Shown: positions 3,295 to 6,629 of the stretch, one piece after another
How the letters are laid out: each line of letters begins with the position of its first letter
Position numbering within the stretch: the first letter of the stretch is position 1
Origin: an uncultured Fidelibacterota bacterium
GTDB lineage: Bacteria > Marinisomatota > Marinisomatia > Marinisomatales > UBA1611
DNA: 6,629 bases
Direction: 5' to 3'
NCBI GenBank assembly: GCA_913041325.1
Contig: CAJWHU010000083.1
Location: 1-6,629, forward strand
Notes under the pieces: generated by a model
Databases searched by the model: none
What the model saw: only the letters and a program-made list of their open reading frames with translations
What the model was told of the DNA's origin: nothing
Made by a program: the position numbers and the translations under genes

Positions 3295-3849
3295 TTAAAA
3301 TGCCTTGAACGGTTCCATAAATAAATACGGTCGCCAATCGATTTGCTCGTCTTTAACATAGCGATGAAAGTAATGCAATCTATTTGGTCGCTTTGGTACT
3401 CTTTTGAGGGTTAAACCTGAATCCTCTGGAGTTCTATCTCCTTTTTTTTGATTACATGATTGGCAGGCAGCTACCAAGTTCTCCCAGGTATCCGATCCTC
3501 CTTTGCCTTTAGGATGTATATGGTCTATTGTTAATGATTTTTTGGAGATACCACAATATTGACAGGTGTACTCATCTCTTGCTAGTATATTTTTTCGGTT
3601 TAAATCAACAGAAAGATTATCATAGCGTATGTAATCTCTAATTTTAATTACGCTTGGTAAAAATTTAGAAATGGTAGGACTGTAAATTTTCTCTTGGTAA
3701 TTTGCCAAAATATCGACCTTATTTAAATATTCCATACAAATAGCTCTCCTAGCTGTGCAGATAGTCATAGGAGCATAGTTTGCATTGAGAACTAGAACAG
3801 CTCGGTCTAGTAAATTATTATAATTTGATCTCATTGCTAGTTTCTTCAT
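3295..3849 (-). CDS. HNH endonuclease-family protein with zinc-binding cysteine pairs
   Basis: The 184-residue product belongs to the stand-alone HNH family that begins with a VLVLNANYAPM-type segment (here residues 18-28, after NNLLDRA). The nuclease module lies at about 96-135: CQYC (96-99), IDHIHPKGKGG (108-118) with H110 as the likely general base, N124, and CQSCN (129-133). The two cysteine pairs should hold a structural zinc, and all core residues are present. I chose the ATG at 3849 because its ATGA overlaps the stop of the upstream peptidase gene. A TTG start at 3876 would add nine residues and overlap that gene by 31 bases. The family is widespread in bacterial chromosomes but its substrate is not established, so I give no symbol. 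Nothing nearby suggests restriction-modification or phage; the setting is a housekeeping operon. Confidence 0.87.
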   Translation of the reverse strand: MKKLAMRSNYNNLLDRAVLVLNANYAPMTICTARRAICMEYLNKVDILANYQEKIYSPTISKFLPSVIKIRDYIRYDNLSVDLNRKNILARDEYTCQYCGISKKSLTIDHIHPKGKGGSDTWENLVAACQSCNQKKGDRTPEDSGLTLKRVPKRPNRLHYFHRYVKDEQIDWRPYLFMEPFKAF

Positions 3850-4571
3850 ATGTGAAACCTGCGTTTTATTGAGCAAGTCGAAAGGTATATATCGAAAAGA
3901 TTTTTATTGAAAATTTTAGAAGTTTCGTTTAGAGAATCTATTTTGACGACACCCTGAGAATGAATGAAGTCAGAATCTCCTATGGAGAGCCCAACATGTG
4001 AGACGGATCCATTTTTACCAAAAAAGTGTAAATCTCCAGGCTCTGAATCATCAATGGTAGTTTCAGAATTTCGAAAAAAGACTTTTTGCTGATGCGCATC
4101 TCTTGGAACCATAAATCCACAAACATAAAGCACTGACTGCACTAAACCTGAACAATCAAAACCAAGACTGGTTTTTCCGCCCCATTTATATGGTATCCCT
4201 AGTAAATTATTAAGGATCTGAACCACTTTCTCGATTCCAAGTTTCTTGTTAGTTGGTGATGAACCAGAAAAAGAGCCCTTAGTTCGGGAGCCAAAAGGCA
4301 ATGATGGTTTAAATAGTCCATCTGAGCAAGGAAACGCAATGACATAATCGGATGTTTTTTTTGAACGCGATTCGAGGCCATAAAATGAATGTATCCAACC
4401 ATTATAACCATCCTCGCAGTCAACATTTAGCCAGTTGCTTTTTTTCTCATTTATTTTTGCTGATTCTCCATAAACTAGTTCTGTGAGGCAAGGGGAATTA
4501 AAATCAGGTTCACCGTGCAGCGATGCGGCACCTGTTTTGCATATAAACCACAATTTTTTGTTTAAAGACAT
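3846..4571 (-). CDS. NlpC/P60 cysteine peptidase with SH3-like N-terminus (YkfC-like)
   Basis: This 241-residue protein is a likely gamma-D-glutamyl-diamino acid endopeptidase acting on cell-wall peptides. The C-terminal NlpC/P60 domain (about 112-240) has YKWGGKTSLGFDCSGL (128-143) with catalytic C140, SVSHVGLSIGD (189-199) with H192, and FIHSQG (202-207) with the third polar residue H204. The N-terminal part (about 5-66) resembles a bacterial SH3 domain (VYGESAKI, WLNVDCEDGYNGWIH). The SH3b plus NlpC layout and the IHSQGVVKIDSLN ending resemble YkfC-type recycling enzymes. There is no signal peptide or lipobox from the ATG at 4571, and an in-frame TAA lies about 21 bases upstream, so a cytoplasmic location and muropeptide recycling fit better than wall lysis (inference). 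It is the first gene of the minus-strand operon and its stop overlaps the HNH start as ATGA. Confidence 0.88.
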   Translation of the reverse strand: MSLNKKLWFICKTGAASLHGEPDFNSPCLTELVYGESAKINEKKSNWLNVDCEDGYNGWIHSFYGLESRSKKTSDYVIAFPCSDGLFKPSLPFGSRTKGSFSGSSPTNKKLGIEKVVQILNNLLGIPYKWGGKTSLGFDCSGLVQSVLYVCGFMVPRDAHQQKVFFRNSETTIDDSEPGDLHFFGKNGSVSHVGLSIGDSDFIHSQGVVKIDSLNETSKIFNKNLFDIYLSTCSIKRRFHI

Positions 4572-4639: not shown

Positions 4640-4811
4640 AGTAAGATTAGAATCATTTTGAGTATATTTAACTAAGGGAAACTCGTTAGATTCGAGTGCA
4701 GTCCCCGCTGCTGTAATTGTAGAACACTTACTTGTTATTTCCATTCTTTGAAACAAGTTTCGAGGGAGAAGGAAAGTAAAGTCGACACTACATGAGCCAG
4801 AATACCTTATT
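4640..4811 (+). promoter_or_regulatory. Cobalamin (B12) riboswitch aptamer
   Basis: The RNA binds a cobalamin such as adenosylcobalamin and regulates the following gene. Conserved blocks are in the right order: AAGGGAA (4674-4680), a hairpin ACTCG/CGAGT (4681-4685 with 4693-4697), GCAG-UCCCCG-CUGC (4698-4711; P5 and L5) running into CUGUAA, a GGGAGAAGG purine block (4764-4772), the B12-box equivalent around CGACACTACA (4783-4792), and GAGCCAGAATACC (4794-4806). Further pairings visible by eye are AGTAAG/CTTATT (4640-4645 with 4806-4811, closing stem, one G-U), TTAG/CTAA (4647-4650 with 4672-4675), TGTAG/CTACA (4718-4722 with 4788-4792), ACTT/AAGT (4726-4729 with 4774-4777) and ACTTGTT/AACAAGT (4730-4736 with 4752-4758). 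The B12 box is divergent from GCCACTG, but the ensemble is unmistakable. Its placement before a BtuG-like gene agrees with B12 control. Confidence 0.95.
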
Positions 4812-4829
4812 AAATAAACGTAAACGACA

Positions 4830-4896
4830 ACACTTTCGGGAGAAAAGTGTCAAATTAGTTTCATTGTCTTGACAATCCCGAAAAATAATAAGGATG
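4830..4896 (+). promoter_or_regulatory. Riboswitch expression platform: P13/L13 hairpin, competing pairing, ribosome binding site
   Basis: A hairpin ACACTTT/AAAGTGT (4830-4836 with 4844-4850) presents the loop CGGGAGA. CGGG of this loop (4837-4840) complements CCCG of aptamer loop L5 (4704-4707), the expected kissing contact in the ligand-bound form. The same loop arm can instead pair TTTCGGGA (4834-4841) with TCCCGAAA (4876-4883), which excludes the hairpin. A small stem ATTGT/ACAAT (4863-4867 with 4872-4876) lies between. ATCC (4875-4878) can also pair with GGAT (4892-4895), which overlaps the AAGGA Shine-Dalgarno sequence at 4890-4894. No U-tract follows any hairpin, so control is more likely at translation than by termination. 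The pairings are seen; the switching model is inference. Confidence 0.7.
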
Positions 4897-4903
4897 TTTT
4901 GAC

Positions 4904-5911
4904 ATGAAAAAATTTACTTTCCTTTTTTTGCTACTTTGCTTCAGCTGCGAGGAAGAGACTAACCCAGATCAAAATTCGGAATTTTTGTTCGTAGCTTCTG
5001 AGGGTAATTATGGTGACTCCAATGGATCTATAACCATGTTCAACGGAAATGAAAAAATACATACCCTCGAAAATGTAGGCGATGTTGTTCAATCAATTCT
5101 CGTACATGATGACAAATTGTTTGTAGCTGTCAACAACAGCCATTTAATCAAAAGATTCACAATCACTGAAACAGGGCTTCAATTACCAGGAATTCAAATT
5201 AGTACCGAGAATTCCAGTCCTCGTGAAATGGTAGTTCTCGAAGACAATTTATATTTTACAAACTGGTTTTCAAAGGATATTAAAGTTCTCAACTTAACTA
5301 CCTTCTCCATAGAAGAATCTATATCGATTGGCGGGGTTCCAGAGGATATAATCACTGATGGAAAAGACTTATGGGTTTCTGTGCCATCTATTGATATTTA
5401 TGATCAGGGTTACGGCACATCTGTTGTAAAAATTAACCCGACAACCAAAGCAATAGAAGAGTCCTACGAAGTCGGTAATGGACCACAAAATCTACTCTTG
5501 GACGGAGAAAAACTTTGGGTTTCAAGAACATTTTATTCTTCTGACTGGTCTACAGCATATTTCGGATCAAGCTTGATTGATTTAAATACAAAGGAGGTTG
5601 AAATCAAAACATATGGTGCAGGCATGATTTGTGGAGGGAACTTGTTAAAATTAAATAATCAAGTTTACAGAACTGTTGACGGTGGAATTGCTCCAATTGA
5701 TCAAAATCTAGACATTAACATTTCGCTAAAAATAGGTTCCTATGGTAGCCTCTATTCTGCCTCATCATCAAACCAAAATATTTATCTGGGACGTAGCGAT
5801 GGTGTCGCTCCTGATTCCGTTTTTGTGCATGACGAAAACGGAAATTTGCAACACAATTTAATGTTAGAATCGGCTTACCCAGGTGATTATGAATTTTGGG
5901 AGCCGAACTAA
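4904..5911 (+). CDS. btuG: BtuG-like surface lipoprotein, beta-propeller, probable cobalamin capture protein
   Basis: The 335-residue product has a lipoprotein signal peptide (MKKFTFLFLLLCFSC) with the probable lipidated cysteine at C15. The following EEE resembles the acidic lipoprotein export signal that sends Bacteroidota lipoproteins to the cell surface. The rest looks like a YncE/DUF5074-type beta-propeller: FVASEGNYGDSNGSI (29-43) is the family's N-terminal EGN-G motif, and blade-like repeats follow (KLFVAVNN 71-78; GVPEDIITDGKDLWVS 144-159; GPQNLLLDGEKLWVS 193-207). The end, DSVFVHDENGNL...PGDYEFW, fits the usual last blade. In Bacteroides, BtuG binds cobalamin tightly and passes it to the TonB-dependent transporter BtuB. 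The upstream cobalamin riboswitch supports that role here. The ATG at 4904 has AAGGA nine bases before it, the clearest ribosome site in the window. Oddly, no btuB is adjacent. Other YncE-like lipoproteins remain possible, but the riboswitch favours BtuG. Confidence 0.8.
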   Translation: MKKFTFLFLLLCFSCEEETNPDQNSEFLFVASEGNYGDSNGSITMFNGNEKIHTLENVGDVVQSILVHDDKLFVAVNNSHLIKRFTITETGLQLPGIQISTENSSPREMVVLEDNLYFTNWFSKDIKVLNLTTFSIEESISIGGVPEDIITDGKDLWVSVPSIDIYDQGYGTSVVKINPTTKAIEESYEVGNGPQNLLLDGEKLWVSRTFYSSDWSTAYFGSSLIDLNTKEVEIKTYGAGMICGGNLLKLNNQVYRTVDGGIAPIDQNLDINISLKIGSYGSLYSASSSNQNIYLGRSDGVAPDSVFVHDENGNLQHNLMLESAYPGDYEFWEPN

Positions 5912-6629
5912 TCATAAAACTCCCACCCAATTTTGAAGATGATTTGACCTCCGAGGCTGGGGAGTGCAGGGTGAGTGAAAAATCGATGATCTTTTTCAGA
6001 GTCAAGTTCGTTTAAAATAATATCGTAAACATTATACCATTCAAATGAAAAGGATAAGCTATTTACATAAGCAGCTATTCCAGCATTGAATATGTTTTTG
6101 AAACTAGCCATCTCAGCTCTGCCCTCACTAAACATTGGTATTTTTTCAATCGGGTCTATAAAATATCCAGATTTTCTCCTATTCAATCTGTTATAATCTC
6201 CTGTCAACTCTAATATCATATGGTCTTGAAAGAGCTTGAAATTACCTTCTGCTTTTAGTGATAATATCGTTCCATAGCCCGATGAGCGCAGGGACAATGG
6301 ATCCTGCATTTTGTAAGATAATTTTAAACTAAAGTTGTCTGATATTGAACTGTTTAGTATAAGCTTAATTCCTTTGTGTGCTAGAGTAAAATTAGATGAT
6401 TCAGAAAATATTCTTTTCCAATAATTAGCATCATCTTTATTGTAAAATAATGTCAATTCTCCATCAATATGCTGTTTATTAATAGCTAAAGTGCTACTTA
6501 CGCAATTATTATTATAGGAGCTTGGTGTGTTATCCTTCTTAACAATTATAAAATAAGGGTGAGCGTTGACTCTTTCGGATTGAAATTGAAAATAAGCTGA
6601 CAATGATTCTAATTTTTTTTTCAGCCTCA
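5908..6629 (-). CDS. Probable outer-membrane beta-barrel protein, C-terminal part (cut by the window edge)
   Basis: The reading frame is open to the right edge, so the visible 240 or so residues are the C-terminal part of a longer protein; a TTG at 6603 is not needed as a start. I do not recognise a specific family. The sequence is rich in amphipathic alternating strands with aromatic girdles (SAYFQFQS, GELTLFYNK, NFSLKLSYKM, GTILSLKAEGNFKLF, MILELTGDYN, SLSFSFEWYNVYD) separated by polar turns. It ends GGQIIFKIGWEFYD, resembling the closing strand of porin-type or TonB-dependent barrels, although the final residue is Asp after Phe-Tyr. No plug, TonB box or signal sequence is in view. Its stop overlaps the btuG stop by four bases, tail to tail. 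It could be a porin, a transporter or another barrel; a link to B12 uptake is not shown. Confidence 0.6.
   Translation of the reverse strand, partial: RLKKKLESLSAYFQFQSERVNAHPYFIIVKKDNTPSSYNNNCVSSTLAINKQHIDGELTLFYNKDDANYWKRIFSESSNFTLAHKGIKLILNSSISDNFSLKLSYKMQDPLSLRSSGYGTILSLKAEGNFKLFQDHMILELTGDYNRLNRRKSGYFIDPIEKIPMFSEGRAEMASFKNIFNAGIAAYVNSLSFSFEWYNVYDIILNELDSEKDHRFFTHPALPSLGGQIIFKIGWEFYD

Follow-up and report, generated by a model that had tools for sequence, protein, structure and literature searches.

BtuG has until now been described as a protein of the Bacteroidetes that acts as a lid on BtuB, and, as given in the available part of a survey of 313 gut strains, its homologues are found only in Bacteroidetes (PMC6143338). 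The stretch of 6,629 nucleotides analysed here (hereafter the window) carries a cobalamin riboswitch followed by a gene for a BtuG-like lipoprotein with no btuB beside it, which raises the question of how such a protein might serve without its partner. A reading of the sequence alone had proposed that the B12 capture protein forms its own regulated unit, working with a distant BtuB, with a different barrel, or in scavenging or storage. The analysis bears this out for the riboswitch, the relationship to BtuG and the separation from btuB, and goes against the distant BtuB; the phylum Fidelibacterota, the riboswitch-btuB-btuG operon of the relatives and the phage copies lie beyond that reading. 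We consider it likely that the locus encodes a B12-capturing BtuG left solitary by the loss of btuB, which would hand B12 to another barrel, most probably that of the neighbouring gene.

The genes around the locus are arranged as follows.

3295..3876, minus strand: HNH endonuclease-family gene (Pfam), a locus flank common to the relatives
3846..4571, minus strand: gene for an NlpC/P60 and SH3 protein (Pfam), also a flank common to the relatives
4904..5911, plus strand: solitary BtuG-like lipoprotein of 335 residues, predicted to be a propeller (reading frame, sequence and structure matches, tree)
5908..6627, minus strand: C-terminal 239 residues of a convergent outer-membrane barrel, its 5' part lying beyond the window (reading frame; TonB-receptor-type barrel predicted for its relative from locus L181; no Pfam plug)

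The minus-strand gene at 5908-6627 lies tail to tail with the BtuG frame, in agreement with the opposite-strand neighbour noted earlier, and is open at the window edge. Apart from this barrel, the remaining reading frames of at least 80 residues include the trpS, HNH and NlpC/P60 genes identified with Pfam; three more genes were read by eye as pseudouridine synthase, scpB and scpA, and two further frames overlap larger genes on the opposite strand. No btuB was seen among the window frames of at least 80 residues, and the btuB status of the window species was read from the relatives in its clade.

The leader of the lipoprotein gene contains the following elements.

4652..4828, plus strand: cobalamin riboswitch aptamer, RF00174 (cmscan 68.6 bits, gathering score 31.5, E 8.3e-16, model positions 1-189 of 189)
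4702..4707, plus strand: loop L5 of the aptamer (UCCCCG), putative counterpart of loop L13; CCCGC is present in 12 of the 12 leaders printed
4830..4850, plus strand: putative P13 hairpin of the expression platform (ACACUUU at 4830-4836, loop CGGGAGA, AAAGUGU at 4844-4850), read from the sequence
4876..4883, plus strand: putative anti-P13 element UCCCGAAA, an 8-base complement of 4834-4841, just 5' of AAGGA (4890-4894)

The match to RF00174 is full-length and stands at 68.6 bits against the curated gathering score of 31.5, so that the complete aptamer proposed earlier is confirmed; its end lies 75 bases before the ATG at 4904, and not 93 as had been stated. In the window the GGGA of the P13 loop is complementary to UCCC of L5 and able to kiss it. 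A hairpin with a CGGG loop was recognised by eye in 11 of the 12 leaders (CGAG in L002), the stems varying while the CCCG and CGGG loops remain complementary, and C-rich stretches resembling UCCCGAAA precede the start in several relatives. In the window UCCCGAAA could compete for the P13 loop and may thereby act in switching; the L5-complementary CGGG loop, together with UCCCGAAA near AAGGA, makes control of translation likely. When the single leader RNA was folded, an extended pairing with the first codons appeared; it was not seen by eye in L001 and was set aside. Being under cobalamin riboswitch control, BtuG is probably made when B12 is scarce, a direction of switching that we infer. Cobalamin riboswitches were found in 156 of the 199 genomes of the phylum (154 over the cut-off), and relatives G001 and G002 carry one each, the one ahead of btuG. 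G018 has a second cobalamin riboswitch (L173, G018:C34), which precedes a gene for cobalamin-independent methionine synthase (PF01717/PF08267).

The lipobox cysteine of the predicted product is encoded as follows.

4946..4948, plus strand: codon of the lipobox cysteine C15, invariant in the 30-sequence alignment A1

Conservation of C15 in 30 of the 30 rows of A1 identifies a lipoprotein, the EGN-G motif noted earlier lies in the same 335-residue frame, and the protein would be exposed at the surface. The best PDB matches of the window protein are Bacteroides BtuG chains (phmmer, E 1.2e-9 to 3e-6), the 30-sequence profile finds them with E values as low as 1.8e-18, and hhalign ties window-type BtuG to that of the Bacteroidota (E 3.6e-21). 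The model of the protein is a propeller (pLDDT 88.3, pTM 0.86) for which the 11 top PDB entries by Z are all BtuG (33.8-32.1), the next being 1ri6 at 30.2; 8bai superposes on it with 2.2 A over 295 residues, and Foldseek gives BtuG rows at 6e-18 to 1e-14 and the next match at 9e-11. Identity to Bacteroides BtuG is about 21% across the fold. The window protein is a BtuG homologue in sequence and predicted fold, as had been surmised, both profile and fold placing it with BtuG and not with another propeller family. As btuB is absent from the window and no BtuB orthologue was found in the 25 solitary-BtuG genomes described below, it is classified as a BtuG-family variant and not as canonical BtuG. 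The Pfam family DUF5074, precomputed for the Bacteroidota relatives listed, stays below threshold in the window protein (21.7 vs 27.2 bits), so Pfam annotation may overlook the Fidelibacterota branch of BtuG.

The named relatives of the window protein belong to Candidatus Neomarinimicrobiota (now Fidelibacterota, FCB group; Marinimicrobia) and not to the Bacteroidota. A BtuG match is present in 113 of the 199 genomes of the phylum, and 96 of these, with matches down to E 1.9e-21, supplied 97 rows (a second G149 fragment left out) for which the distance from riboswitch to BtuG was determined. The distances are bimodal: 59 of the 97 rows lie at 2082-2577 bp and 22 under 800 bp, 17 of the latter at 68-110 bp, while 16 rows have no riboswitch on the same contig and strand among the matches listed; some of these 16 may have a weak one outside that list. 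The long gap holds a gene. In 19 of the 19 btuB-linked loci fetched (18 from the 59 long-gap rows, and L177 of G080 from the rows without a riboswitch) a gene of 663-726 residues precedes BtuG, and profile A4 of the gap genes matches Bacteroides BtuB2 in the PDB at 1.5e-56, then BtuB3 and BtuB1, E. coli BtuB at 5e-44 and the next family at 1e-19. As judged by these profile matches the gene is BtuB, and the order riboswitch-btuB-btuG is common in the phylum.

A BtuB orthologue was located between riboswitch and BtuG, at 522-819 bits, in 20 of 20 held-out long-gap genomes; the 10 btuB-linked genomes of the first BtuB profile search were themselves profile rows and that search was circular, which does not apply to the 20. 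None was found in 25 of 25 solitary-BtuG genomes, MAG-like and of unstated completeness, where the best score was at most 128.6 bits. These comprise all short-gap genomes but G149 (21 of 22) and also G131, G194, G108 and G189; the latter four were included by similarity, no riboswitch being listed for the contig and strand of their BtuG. The riboswitch is kept ahead of BtuG in 21 of the 25. Next-best scores in BtuB-bearing genomes reach 156 and 262 bits, from other receptors, so that 128.6 bits falls among the scores of such receptors, and a diverged BtuB below 262 bits would be indistinguishable from such receptors by this profile.

The two types of locus share their surroundings in many cases: on one side there are HNH and/or NlpC/P60 genes, on the other a gene read by eye as YhaM-like together with the convergent barrel. 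The same flanks, with BtuB absent at that place, read as a loss of btuB in place. Other Fidelibacterota operons resemble the window in riboswitch family, flanking genes and homologous btuG, and differ in that btuB still stands between the switch and btuG. A tree was built from 55 BtuG rows. The window clusters there with the solitary, environmental and phage rows in a single group of 35 (99/98) at the end of a long branch (0.72), and each of 200 bootstrap trees (100%) has a branch that separates the 19 btuB-linked rows from the rest. The tree has one Bacteroidota outgroup on a very long branch, and the polarity follows outgroup logic because Bacteroides also encode BtuB with BtuG. Solitary BtuG is a real, derived lineage in one supported clade, and the loss of btuB is the state of that clade and not a local accident; the sequence-only reading of BtuG as a unit of its own holds for the clade as well as for the window. 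The ancestral operon would have been riboswitch-btuB-btuG, with btuB lost from its place in the ancestor of the window's clade. For Marinimicrobia, cobalamin and BtuB together, only work on Caldithrix was found in a literature search that had preprints and most subscription papers outside its range.

Two further arrangements were seen in these genomes. In G071 (C2:11158-23453), more BtuB-like matches (262 and 215 bits) and a weak second BtuG-like match lie within 12 kb of the btuB-btuG pair. On another branch of solitary BtuG, the gene is preceded on its own strand by one for a permease of about 400 residues, other reading frames intervening in some cases (L191, L192, L196, L198 and L199, of G186, G153, G195, G165 and G187); that of L191 is ArsP_1 with HMA by Pfam, and the other four were identified by eye.

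BtuG might work with a TonB receptor encoded elsewhere, either a strongly diverged BtuB or a recruited unrelated receptor. Receptors are at hand, since G001 and G002 encode 14 and 24 with a plug domain, and E. coli BtuB is the best PDB match for two families, one of 739 residues (L005/L006) and one of about 725 (L007/L008). A counterpart 53% identical to the first occurs in G020, a genome that itself bears BtuB, so this family is not the replacement. Members of the second stand behind a TetR-type gene in the five genomes inspected (by eye; Pfam for one) and near ferrochelatase in G158, with the same gene seen by eye in G141; for L008 the highest-scoring model is that of a haem receptor. No candidate receptor approaches the 522 bits or more of true BtuB. 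Both families are disfavoured as substitute BtuB by the G020 counterpart, the haem-type context and the low scores, and a receptor encoded elsewhere is on the whole rather unlikely; the scores of at most 128.6 bits in 25 of 25 solitary genomes, set against 522-819 in the 20 held-out ones, likewise disfavour the distant BtuB proposed at the outset.

The preferred partner, a barrel other than BtuB, has a concrete candidate in the window. The L181 relative of the minus-strand neighbour is predicted by modelling to be a TonB-receptor-type barrel, with a Z to BtuB of 25.2 against 24.2 and below for other TonB receptors. No Pfam match to the plug domain PF07715 was obtained in the relatives from L001, L002, L166 and L181; the model begins with about 84 residues, mainly low in confidence, ahead of the first barrel strand, and the window copy is cut before the part at the plug position. 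The idea that the barrel is specifically BtuB-like in sequence was dropped, as hhalign gave a probability of 92% with 19 BtuB rows but 4% with 7; four other receptor families gave 0.4-3.8%. Among solitary loci the barrel adjoins BtuG in 10 of 20, and among btuB-linked loci the figure is 11 of 19; hence it is not a simple substitute for BtuB. The earlier suggestion of a different barrel has thereby gained a candidate, its presence at btuB-linked loci and a resemblance to BtuB barely above that to other receptors counting against it.

The putative inner-membrane genes beside the barrel make it the best candidate partner of BtuG. In 13 of 39 loci of the relatives the barrel has a CbrT-like B12 S-component next to it, and in others DUF6580. 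The CbrT-like protein, whose gene is absent from the window, has 6fnp (ECF-CbrT) as best PDB match (E 2.2e-5), the sole other match below E 1 being at 0.67. It resembles the S-component of ECF-CbrT, the B12 ECF transporter described for Lactobacillus delbrueckii in the available text of PMC5997447, and differs in that its gene adjoins an outer-membrane barrel and BtuG. DUF6580 and CbrT never occur together at one locus (0/12 vs 12/20, p 0.0006, over 32 of 41 loci and uncorrected for kinship). The profiles used for finding the barrel and CbrT contain most of the rows that were counted, and several fetched loci stop at contig ends, where absence of barrel or CbrT carries little weight. BtuC (FecCD) was not found in 46 of 50 genomes, among them 22 of the 25 solitary ones; FecCD is present in the other 3. 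B12-binding domains occur in both of two genomes, those of G001 being MetH and a mutase subunit by eye. With BtuC missing, CbrT or DUF6580 may provide the inner-membrane step. A remote relationship of DUF6580 to ECF S-components was considered and rejected (hhalign 0.5%; no PDB match below E 1), and DUF6580 was not found in the literature searched (preprints and most subscription papers outside). At L035:932-2214, DUF6580 is convergent with a Peripla_BP_2 (BtuF-like) protein with no evident signal peptide by eye, and FecCD/BtuC was not found in the genome of that locus.

Solitary BtuG might instead scavenge or store B12, or act as a trap, with no dedicated barrel, B12 entering by any porin or receptor. 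Half of the solitary loci (10 of 20) have no neighbour barrel beside BtuG, and other Bacteroides lipoproteins, BtuH, BtuJ and BtuK, bind B12 without being barrels, according to the available parts of PMC8941943, PMC12751083 and PMC13398666. Riboswitch control and conservation, however, fit uptake better than storage or a trap. The affinity reported for BtuG2 is femtomolar (PMC6143338, available text), and a femtomolar trap would need a release partner such as loop EL8 of BtuB, as described in the accessible part of PMC10404256. We regard such a role as improbable.

Relatives of solitary-clade BtuG are also encoded on eight IMG/VR contigs (L040, L041/L048, L042, L043, L044, L045, L049 and L050), six of the eight proteins forming one group in the tree (89/90), and no riboswitch at gathering score was found in any of the eight viral pieces. 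BtuG stands directly behind a clamp-loader gene on the small contigs L040, L041, L043 and L044 (PHROG for L041). In two larger contigs it stands in tandem behind DUF6580, the genes being 23 bases apart at L049:9489-11020 (177-kb contig) and 16 bases apart at L050:9502-11017 (74.7-kb contig). Of the proteins tested, 4 of 10 from L049 and 2 of 9 from L050 matched phage families, so the viral nature of L050 relies more on IMG/VR. DUF6580 is present on four viral contigs, L050 included, and no BtuG frame was seen within 6 kb of it in L202, L203 and L204. The DUF6580 of L050 is 69% identical to that of bacterial L035, beside the BtuF-like protein, which points to Marinimicrobia as source or host of the viral copies.

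Phage BtuG may feed B12 to the host or may block a receptor, as does Llp of phage T5, a superinfection-exclusion lipoprotein jamming FhuA. Both would be phage lipoproteins acting on a TonB-receptor-type barrel; Llp, in the available description, is small and binds FhuA from the periplasm (PMC9586334), and the likeness to phage BtuG is one of description. Among deposited phages no convincing BtuG copy was found, the sole match being MT835494.1 (L235), an unverified 'Bacteriophage sp.' faecal scaffold with a Bacteroidota-type BtuG and a BtuB-like gene (by eye), which is probably bacterial DNA. BtuG as an auxiliary metabolic gene of phages was not found in the literature (preprints and most subscription papers outside the search), and a query combining phage, vitamin B12, lipoprotein, TonB-dependent and auxiliary metabolic gene matched a single paper, on an enterobacterial phage. 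A TonB-dependent-receptor gene occurs at L041:1-546 and L055:7835-10546 among apparent phage ribonucleotide reductase and exonuclease genes; that of L055 encodes 903 residues with plug and barrel (Pfam) and has relatives at at least 80 viral loci, the query's contig included.

The preferred reading further implies that solitary BtuG still binds B12. The cobalamin residues of BtuG2 named in the available part of PMC10404256 are the loop Asn54-Thr64, which holds cobalamin in simulations, Trp194, Trp272, Tyr239, Tyr316 and Tyr335. The corresponding places in the window are as follows.

4997..5029, plus strand: S32-S42 loop SEGNYGDSNGS, equivalent of BtuG2 Asn54-Thr64 by profile alignment (NEGNFQYSNAT, by counting along the 8bmy chain)
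5132..5143, plus strand: NNSH motif N77-H80, common to Bacteroides BtuG (alignment)
5630..5632, plus strand: codon of C243, at or beside the BtuG2 Trp272 place, the exact column being unsure against Bacteroidota (hhalign)

The window protein shares with BtuG1, BtuG2 and BtuG3 of Bacteroides thetaiotaomicron the propeller lipoprotein form, cobalamin riboswitch control and the EGN..N loop, GDVxQS, NNSH and SPR motifs, of which the loop is the B12 contact in the available text of PMC10404256 (also PMC6143338, in part). It differs in its low identity (about 21%), in its phylum, in having no btuB beside it and none in the clade genomes, and in carrying Tyr at Trp194 and Cys at or beside Trp272. Apart from the reference, EG is retained throughout (54 of 54 rows), and GDVxQS, NNSH and SPR are largely kept. 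The Tyr239 place holds Tyr in 29 of 29 solitary or environmental rows, 18 of 19 btuB-linked and 6 of 6 phage rows; in 54 of 54 there is a Tyr at the Tyr316 place or next to it. The Trp194 column has Trp in 19 of 19 btuB-linked rows and Tyr in 23 of 29 solitary or environmental rows and 6 of 6 phage rows. At the Trp272 column, Cys occupies 29 of 29 solitary or environmental rows and 6 of 6 phage rows (hhalign against Bacteroidota BtuG moves it by one or two places); of the 19 btuB-linked rows, 10 carry Phe there and 4 carry Tyr. The alignment gives the window protein no equivalent of Tyr335. The residue comparison called for earlier thus came out mixed, the loop and the Tyr239 and Tyr316 places being kept and Trp194, Trp272 and Tyr335 not. 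Retention of EG and the motifs beside replacement of the two Trp suggests that the corrin-gripping loops are kept and the upper-ligand side rebuilt, and binding of B12 by solitary BtuG would be expected from this. That the propeller has turned to another ligand, the riboswitch being kept by descent, would suit the replaced Trp194 and Trp272 equivalents and the length (0.72) of the internal branch from which the solitary clade arises, but is very improbable given the EGN loop, GDVxQS, NNSH and SPR shared with Bacteroides BtuG in most rows, the riboswitch ahead of BtuG in 21 of 25 solitary genomes, the pairing of DUF6580 with BtuG on two phage contigs, and DUF6580 by a BtuF-like protein in G001.

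BtuM of Thiobacillus denitrificans is a membrane protein unrelated to BtuG. A Cys can ligate the cobalt of B12, as in BtuM, which binds B12 in cysteine-ligated form and decyanates it (PMC6072759, available part), and the invariant Cys of solitary BtuG is predicted to lie at the upper-ligand side; that it ligates cobalt there is only a guess.

The proposal that emerges is of a riboswitch-controlled BtuG-family B12 capture lipoprotein of marine Fidelibacterota, with its corrin-gripping loops retained and its upper-ligand side remodelled, which most likely would still hand B12 to an outer-membrane barrel. More tentatively, and as a possibility that we do not expect to hold in full, there could be a new B12 route without BtuB and BtuCD, consisting of BtuG, a plug-less receptor-type barrel and CbrT or DUF6580 as inner-membrane carrier; large marine phages might have captured parts of it (BtuG, and the DUF6580-BtuG tandem in two contigs) to feed B12 into Marinimicrobia hosts or to block their re-infection, and the clade-invariant Cys may ligate cobalt.

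The family is known and the arrangement is new: a BtuB-less BtuG lineage in a marine phylum, common to phages as well, where B12-capture genes are seen travelling in marine phages. Through its surroundings DUF6580, a Pfam family without an assigned function, is further linked to B12 transport: bacteria have it next to the barrel and BtuG, G001 has it near a BtuF-like protein, phages have it in tandem with BtuG, and it never shares the locus with CbrT. As the clade keeps the switch and the catcher and drops BtuB, the function of BtuG without its partner, and the barrel that would replace that partner, become directly testable.
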